Assembly (NCBI RefSeq): GCF_014203735.1
Contig: NZ_JACHJQ010000003.1
Coordinates: 171,326-235,325 of the forward strand
Direction of reading: 5' to 3'
DNA: 64,000 nt
From: Actinophytocola algeriensis
GTDB lineage: Bacteria > Actinomycetota > Actinomycetes > Mycobacteriales > Pseudonocardiaceae
Numbering within the stretch: the stretch's first letter is position 1; each line of letters begins with the position of its first letter. Shown in pieces: positions 21,703 to 35,268 of this stretch. The translations under genes and the position numbers were made by a program. The notes below the pieces were generated by a model that had not been told where the DNA came from, ran no database searches, and saw only the letters and a program-made list of their open reading frames with translations.

Positions 21703-22025
21703 CCTCCGGCACCTTCCCGTGCCTCGTCGGCGGGCTCGCGACGCCGTCCAGAGGTGGCGGCCCGTCCCCGCGCACCGGACCGCGCGGAAAGATCAACTGT
21801 GGCCCTCGCCCCCCGGAAATCCAGCGTAACGGGGCACACCGACAACGACGACGGCTCGACCACGAGTTGTCCACAGCAGACGGACTTGTCCACAGCACCG
21901 CCCCGCACCGCCCGAAACTGTCGGTCCCGTGCCGTAGCGTGGTGACCGGGGGCCGGAGGCCGCCCCACCTCACCGGTCCCGGGCTCCGATCGGGCAGCCG
22001 CGGATCCGGCACGGGAGCCAGCGGG
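21703..22025. other. 323-bp convergent intergenic region
   Basis: Lies between two convergent genes (nitrobindin and the aminotransferase) and contains no credible ORF. Its central 162 bp form element A (next entry). The flanks contain short GC-rich segments without clear terminator structure. Confidence 0.7.
21801..21962. repeat. Intergenic element A: paired outward PafBC-like promoters with DnaA-like boxes
   Basis: An element of about 162 bp with imperfect inverted ends (CCCCCCGGAAATCCAGC left; CCGGGGGCCGGAGG right). On the minus strand TTGTCGGTG (21837-21845), N8 and TACGCT (21823-21828) match the RecA-NDp/PafBC promoter motif tTGTCRGTG-N8-TAnnnT. On the plus strand CTGTCGGTC (21918-21926), N8 and TAGCGT (21935-21940) match it again. 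Two TTGTCCACA sequences (21867-21875, 21886-21894) lie between. A second copy is at 35104-35262. Confidence 0.75.
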
Positions 22026-35046: not shown

Positions 35047-35103
35047 TTCGGTGGCCCACGGCCTCGCTCGCCGACACCAGCCCAGCGCACGCCCCCGGCG
35101 GGC

Positions 35104-35262
35104 GGCCTCCGGCCCCCGGAATCCAGCGTAACGGGGGGCACCGACGAACAGTGCGGTTGTGGATGCCCCTGGGGACAACTGCCCCACCTGTGGACAACCC
35201 TCACGCACGCACCGAAAACTGTCGGCGCCCTGCCGTAGGCTGGAAATCGGGGGCCGGCGGCC
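35104..35262. repeat. Intergenic element B: second copy of the paired PafBC-like promoter element
   Basis: An element of 159 bp between convergent lacI-type and SGNH genes. Ends are inverted repeats (GGCCTCCGGCCCCCGGAATC left; the right end mirrors it with 20 of 24 matches). Minus-strand TCGTCGGTG (35139-35147), N8, TACGCT (35125-35130) and plus-strand CTGTCGGCG (35219-35227), N8, TAGGCT (35236-35241) face outward. The gap between the two -35 boxes is 71 bp here and 72 bp in element A. A perfect reverse-complement DnaA box TTGTCCACA lies at 35189-35197. Confidence 0.75.
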
Positions 35263-35268
35263 AAGCCG

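Follow-up and report, generated by a model that had tools for sequence, protein, structure and literature searches.

A gene-less, back-to-back recA-type promoter with a DnaA-type box pair as a candidate dispersed regulatory unit in Actinophytocola algeriensis

To our knowledge, the DNA-damage response of the order to which Actinophytocola algeriensis belongs has been studied mainly in mycobacteria. Clusters of DnaA boxes outside oriC are known from datA and from B. subtilis and Streptomyces, and datA-type clusters buffer free DnaA. Repeats of the REP/BIME kind and promoter-bearing MITEs such as the Correia elements are short, intergenic and dispersed, carry inverted arms and prefer the 3' ends of genes. 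The mycobacterial PafBC-dependent recA promoter (RecA-NDp) shares its -26 motif, its -10 hexamer TANNNT and the spacing between them with the locus described here, element A, and this kind of promoter also stands in front of repair genes in A. algeriensis; in element A, however, two such promoters lie back to back, lead into no gene and include a box pair. Like the datA, B. subtilis and Streptomyces clusters, element A and its relatives are chromosomal DnaA-box sites away from oriC, but here the boxes form exact 19-bp pairs that are locked to promoters at 38 bp and occur in dozens of scattered copies. The family is likewise short, intergenic and dispersed, with inverted arms and a preference for gene 3' ends, as in the REP, BIME and Correia repeats, whereas its arms are predicted damage promoters with variable spacers and enclose DnaA-type boxes. 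The literature that we searched, partly as titles and the beginnings of abstracts, held no report linking a DnaA-box pair to recA or PafBC promoters.

Element A lies in a window of 64,000 nucleotides (the whole stretch of DNA analysed) between two convergent genes whose products match PF08768 (nitrobindin-type) and PF01063 (aminotransferase class IV). The initial annotation had described two outward-facing arms around DnaA-like boxes, and its letters and coordinates for arms and boxes all proved exact on re-reading: the left arm, TTGTCGGTG-N8-TACGCT, runs on the minus strand from 21845 to 21823, the right arm, CTGTCGGTC-N8-TAGCGT, occupies 21918-21940 on the plus strand, and between them the 9-mer TTGTCCACA starts at 21867 and 21886. 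Motif scans place a -26 (PafBC-type) motif TGTCGGT at 21838..21844 and the -10 box TACGCT at 21823..21828 in the left promoter (minus strand), the same -26 motif at 21919..21925 and the -10 box TAGCGT at 21935..21940, 39 bp after box 2, in the right promoter (plus strand), and two boxes TTGTCCACAG of DnaA-box type on the plus strand at 21867..21876 (box 1) and 21886..21895 (box 2), 19 bp apart from start to start. Each half therefore comprises a -10 hexamer TANNNT, TGTCGGT 9 bp before it and the near edge of the TTGTCCACAG pair 38-39 bp before the -10. Transcription is predicted to start at about 21816-21814 on the minus strand and at about 21947-21948 on the plus strand, by extrapolation from genes that carry this motif and are leaderless. 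The left end (21801..21822, minus strand) consists of a G-run and a GC-rich tail 3' of the left promoter, takes variant forms in other copies and includes GGGGGGCGAGGGCC (21814 to 21801, minus strand), near which the homology between copies ends; the right end, GGGGGCCGGAGGCC(G), was placed at 21948..21962 (plus strand) by comparison with other copies. Both arms read TGTCGGT-N9-TANNNT, and the broader pattern TGTCRGT-N9-TANNNT matches the 64-kb window at these two outward-facing sites only and at none in 100 shuffles, and the window contains three copies of TTGTCCACA where 0.24 would be expected. A second family member, at 35099..35268 (no strand assigned), has arms that deviate from the strict motif by one or two letters and fills most of the convergent gap between the genes for a LacI-type regulator and a GDSL lipase.

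The same arrangement is found upstream of recA in A. algeriensis, where TTGTCCACA and TTGTCCACAG at 19-bp spacing are followed after 22 bp by TGTCGGTGCTTGCCGTTAGCGT, which ends 7 nt before an in-frame GTG. Judged by its sequence, the layout of element A is that of the predicted recA promoter, namely box pair, damage motif and -10, and the boxes, which the initial annotation had overlooked in this role, are by this likeness part of the putative promoter itself. We located recA in 41 genomes including that of A. algeriensis and compared 31 upstream regions (30 and its own). In the last of four readings, which varied the pattern for the RecA motif, 22 of the 31 had a box pair with no more than four mismatches in total and a spacing of 18-20 bp (19 bp in 16, 18 or 20 bp in six); the damage motif likewise stands before these 22 genes, which come from seven families within the order. 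Of the 31 regions, 23 scored better than their own shuffles at 0.01. In the remaining eight (G303, G007, G215, G239, G305, G313, G309 and G274) the pair was no better than shuffles at this level; G007, the single recA promoter examined from family f8, has no recognisable box pair. As a separate observation, the recA match at G300:C44:1046-3109 falls into two pieces within a 760-aa open frame in an intein-like manner, and the matches in G009, G010 and G013 are split similarly.

The damage motif itself, TGTCRGT at -26 and TANNNT at -10 at fixed distance, has 188 sites in the A. algeriensis genome against three for the reversed pattern, and it lies upstream of recA, ligA, recO, uvrC, dnaX and the genes for exonuclease III and a DEDD exonuclease; from its position, it would drive these repair genes. 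Because the motif also precedes repair genes in this genome, the initial interpretation of the arms as damage promoters is well supported. Of the 188 sites, 29 others located outside the elements were compared, those before ligA, recO, uvrC, dnaX and the two exonuclease genes included: no box lies within 110 bp of 28 of them, and the remaining one has its box at another position. Boxes are therefore unnecessary for a damage promoter, and the pair is, as these sites indicate, a trait of recA and the elements and not of damage promoters generally. The genome contains pafA; by eye, pafBC does not lie directly downstream of it, and a crude motif scan found none in the 60 kb around pafA. A TGTCAGTG-type damage motif is located just 3' of a second PafA-family gene near pafA (G000:C2:702464-702485), a gene which we take to be dop-like.

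Element A is one copy of a family that is dispersed over the 9.73 Mb (23 contigs) scanned in this genome. The pattern TTGTCCACAG-N4-14-TTGTCCACAG occurs 60 times, 30 times per strand, with a gap of exactly 9 bp (19-bp spacing) in 58 cases, and its reversed control does not occur; ACCGACA-N60-90-TGTCGGT-N9-TANNNT gives 38 hits, which by hand count represent 23 distinct places, 15 of them with both arms complete, against none for the reversed pattern. These counts supply the genome-wide excess of paired motifs that the initial annotation had proposed as a check, and they bear out its description of the locus as an outward pair of RecA-NDp-type promoters without a gene and as an amplified regulatory unit. 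When all 60 box-pair loci were compared side by side, the common form, alpha, was found to be about 165 bp long and to run from the end GGCCTCCGGCCCCC through a left-facing -10/-26, two boxes and a right-facing -26/-10 to the end GGGGGCCGGAGGCC, while the beta form, at 19 of the 60 loci, departs from it at the right end, which typically reads TAGACTGGCAAGGCGGGACGCCCCCGGGACAGGGTGGGGG. A profile search based on 55 alpha halves and 20 beta units, to which contig C9 itself had contributed, recovered two loci in the window and 21 in the 400 kb of C9, a contig that was covered whole and chosen as pair-rich (9 of the 60 pairs), so that its density lies above the genome average; across all DNA of this genome examined by then, the profile search gave 89 distinct loci. 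Other end types follow the -10 at L103, L139 and L253-L256, for example AGGGGGTCCCCTGGGCG and GGGGGGATCCCC, which suggests several subfamilies with only the promoter core in common. Another short repeat family, at L028:9065-9151, has matches on seven other contigs of the genome.

Placement between convergent genes, to which the initial annotation had drawn attention, turned out to be enriched but not exclusive. With genes called by a simple coding-score script, by which single gap assignments may be wrong, convergent gaps hold 10 of the 20 gap-located loci in the 464 kb of C9 and the window, where such gaps make up 49 of 327 (binomial 2.5e-4); eight further loci lie in tandem and two in divergent gaps, and the other three of the 23 loci are intragenic by these calls. 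The 60 box pairs of the whole genome are distributed as 28 convergent, 24 tandem, 4 divergent and 4 inside genes. On C9, a box is found no more than 80 bp from 16 of the 21 strict damage-motif sites.

The spacing of the parts is stepped. In 36 inverted pairs, chosen by their promoter arms within the A. algeriensis DNA examined, the edge-to-edge distance between the TGTC motifs is 73-74 bp in 23, 83-84 bp in eight, 63 bp in two and 92, 94 and 97 bp in one each. Of the 13 outside 73-74 bp, 11 lie one or two helical turns away within about a base, and the distances of 92 and 97 bp fail to fit such steps. By eye, the gain or loss of 10-11 bp is placed variously to the left of the boxes, to the right, between them or on both sides; because the shifts sit at differing places, several of these changes are independent and kept the helical phase. 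From distances that change by helical turns we infer that the parts of the element probably act as one nucleoprotein unit. A strict arm stands to the right of 29 of the 60 box pairs, to the left of 27, on both sides of 20 and on neither side of 24, where letter shuffling predicts 0.00025 strict arms per right side, and the offsets of the arms cluster at 22-24 and 32-33 bp from the pair within a permitted range of 5-47. With a looser motif, 20 of the 60 pairs are still armless on either side; some armless pairs are gene promoters, others beta units with a degenerate TGTC. A nearest box centre was found for 102 of 119 promoter-like sites, a sample of this genome's DNA chosen for pair or motif and hence biased, at 15.5 bp (5), 23.5-29.5 bp (86), 36.5-38.5 bp (10) and 65.5 bp (1); a Rayleigh test on these box-promoter distances did not single out 10.5 bp, its score climbing steadily from a period of 9 to one of 12. 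Downstream of 80 pairs from this and congeneric genomes, TANNNT occurs 61 times within 0-69 bp, at 37-39 bp in 58 cases, at 49 bp in two and at 69 bp in one. Most copies from A. algeriensis were selected for pair or motif, which biases conservation at those positions upward. In aligned copies, -26 and -10 stand at a fixed distance, with letters between them that vary freely, and because the motifs are intact while the spacers have diverged, it seems that the copies have kept their promoter function and more than the bare DNA.

We read element A as a gene-less bidirectional recA-type promoter, in which two promoters stand back to back around one shared DnaA-type box pair and would be activated through PafBC and probably DnaA, and we give this reading a probability of roughly 0.6. 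The high-affinity DnaA box listed for M. tuberculosis and S. coelicolor is TTGTCCACA (PMC4285127); element A contains this 9-mer, and the boxes of the elements are predicted DnaA sites. PafBC was described as acting by sigma adaptation via the -26 motif, assayed on the recA promoter of M. smegmatis (PMC11804915), and as being activated by single-stranded DNA to adapt the housekeeping polymerase to promoters with this motif (PMC11804915, PMC6789036). Because the published DnaA box and the published -26 mechanism match what the element contains, a working model can be outlined in which DnaA, or another reader of the same 9-mer, would sit on the box pair and activate or gate RNA polymerase, while DNA damage would lead through single-stranded DNA to active PafBC and thereby cause the housekeeping polymerase to start outward transcription at both arms. 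The pair-bound DnaA and the PafBC-polymerase of each arm would then form one phased complex, whose proteins would have to line up, since the spacings shift mostly by whole helical turns. The predicted RNAs would begin at the run of G and extend antisense into the 3' ends of both flanking genes; RNA hairpins at three predicted start regions were no more stable than those of shuffles. The units themselves would have been copied around the chromosome in a REP- or MITE-like manner.

In another reading, the units would bind DnaA, PafBC or polymerase but give rise to no meaningful RNA, as a protein sink or chromosome mark that buffers DnaA or sets the threshold of the recA response. The number of pairs and their uneven placement would suit such a role, with none of the 60 on contig C2 (1.32 Mb) and 16 on C3 (1.14 Mb), as would the lack of a gene downstream of the units and the density on pair-rich C9, where 35 exact TTGTCCACA boxes lie in 400 kb and 1.3 would be expected. 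However, a sink requires boxes and neither a -10 at a fixed 38 bp nor promoter pairs at stepped distances, and we consider it rather unlikely.

Box pairs also occur in front of other genes. A script separated 15 pairs without element ends in the genomes of A. algeriensis and its congeners, and most of 16 pairs with spacing data have a -10-like hexamer exactly 38 bp downstream (CACGAT, CATCGT, CAGTCT and similar, mostly not TANNNT), with the ATG or GTG of the tested open frame 6-7 nt after the hexamer in 11 of the 16. Exact gene-linked pairs are located at L018, L043, L071, L078, L042, L070, L075 and L079. The genes concerned encode a ComEA-like protein (SLBB and HHH_3 domains; TIGR01259 below its cut-off), a UPF0102/YraN protein (by Pfam in A. 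algeriensis and G299, by eye in G302), an M23 peptidase and a DUF4192 protein, all of which have a leaderless-type start 6-7 nt after the hexamer, and, as an exception to this, SSB in two species, whose start codon lies 97 bp after the pair and is not leaderless; further pairs precede genes for an acyl-CoA dehydrogenase, an AAA protein and proteins without a Pfam match. At four loci from four species (L010, L067, L076 and L080), a pair and an ATG 6-7 nt after a -10-like hexamer run in antisense orientation into a saccharopine-dehydrogenase-like gene at its 3' end, an assignment made by Pfam in three loci and by DNA similarity in L080.

A regulon for DNA uptake and recombination marked by box pairs is possible from these positions, and it is only a lead because the other pair-linked genes fit no DNA-uptake theme. 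We would go further only tentatively, at clearly less than even odds, to propose that DnaA or a reader of the same box directly gates a recA/comEA/ssb/yraN-operon regulon in the order through the TTGTCCACAG pair at its fixed place 38 bp before the -10, and that some lineages have amplified this promoter into dozens of gene-less, bidirectional units, which send out damage-induced transcription across the chromosome. The same pairs before recA, ssb, comEA-like and yraN (UPF0102) genes, whose distance to a -10-like hexamer is fixed, could alternatively be read by an activator of DNA-uptake and recombination genes other than DnaA; we hold this to be improbable, since the 9-mer is the published actinobacterial DnaA box (PMC4285127) and several gene-linked pairs precede genes without such a role.

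The relationships between copies and between species bear on how the units spread. Alpha copies that match best can be aligned along the whole element, about 150-184 bp, with about 76-82% identity (46 best pairs listed), and two beta copies 3.6 kb apart (L054:3020 and 6653) are 97% identical over 138 bp, the plainest indication of recent copying. The full two-armed pattern was found in one of 298 genomes of the order, that of A. algeriensis, in a draw that held no other genome of the genus. Within six genomes of the genus, exact box pairs number 58 (A. algeriensis), 15, 3, 3, 3 and 1, and half units with an alpha end 9 (A. algeriensis), 6, 3, 2, 0 and 0; single units of exact layout were found in 18 of 249 genomes of the family, five genomes of another genus holding 12, 7, 4, 4 and 3. 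In another genus, units at G487:C1:6449133 and 6449351 face each other and stand in tandem rows. A full-layout scan returned eight loci: one in Actinokineospora inagensis has the full plan (L083), a second one in that species (L085) and one in Kibdelosporangium banguiense (L082) have a partial plan with the -10 or its spacing off, and the other five look unrelated.

At the site of element A, two congeners have the same gene pair with 6 and 10 bp between the gene ends and no element, another has one half unit and other sequence, and two have other sequence; in L028, four congeners lack the unit at one element site and at least two lack it at another. Four gaps contain a unit in both A. algeriensis and G299 (by eye). 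Because sites are empty in congeners and these four gaps are common to both genomes, units, by this comparison, come and go between species, and common descent may account for some of those shared. The compared sites yielded no clean insertion junctions, and the gaps of A. algeriensis hold sequence besides the element. The term mobile, used in the initial annotation, thus agrees with presence and absence between congeners but finds no counterpart in a target-site duplication, none of which was seen by eye in the 27 of 36 pairs with recognised ends (the left flank is missing in two).

Could the unit then be a selfish REP- or MITE-like repeat that has captured a recA promoter, with the arms as its terminal repeats and no benefit to the host? 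The alignment of copies over their whole length, the nearly identical beta copies, the orthologous gaps without a unit and the tails after the G-run, which differ by lineage, are what such a repeat would produce, and terminal inverted repeats and many homologous copies are MITE traits; but no target duplication as in a MITE was seen in the 27 pairs with recognised ends, the three predicted start regions that were folded show no stable hairpin as in a REP/BIME unit, and the free letters at fixed distance between -26 and -10 resemble a promoter and not a transposase site. We regard this explanation as quite unlikely. That the locus is the scar of a lost damage-inducible gene, as the initial annotation had also suggested from promoters that lie between genes without a gene of their own, is scarcely credible, since the two-promoter layout of about 165 bp recurs at many loci and an eroded gene leaves no repeated, spaced promoter pairs. 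Several other candidates were discarded: chance origin was ruled out by shuffles and reversed-pattern controls; an RNA family was dismissed for seven beta-bearing loci, none of which matched Rfam at its gathering scores; a hairpin or terminator pure and simple disagrees with arms in which promoter spacing is kept and complementarity is not (TAGCGT, TACGCT and TAGGCT combine freely between arms) and with the folding of the three start regions; and the DNA between and beside the two beta copies at C4:113568/115496, considered as a composite transposon, holds ordinary-looking open frames by eye.

Finally, the reading of element A as a paired recA-type promoter would be of interest beyond this locus. 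The box pairs at 22 of the 31 recA genes offer a link, visible in the sequence and open to direct test, between DnaA, which initiates replication, and the control of recA, and the dozens of similar units on the chromosome hint at an unstudied connection between DnaA and the DNA-damage response. The elements would represent a promoter that has been amplified as a free-standing genomic unit, and their stepped spacings offer a natural mutational series, in which units are shifted by 10-11 bp at different positions.
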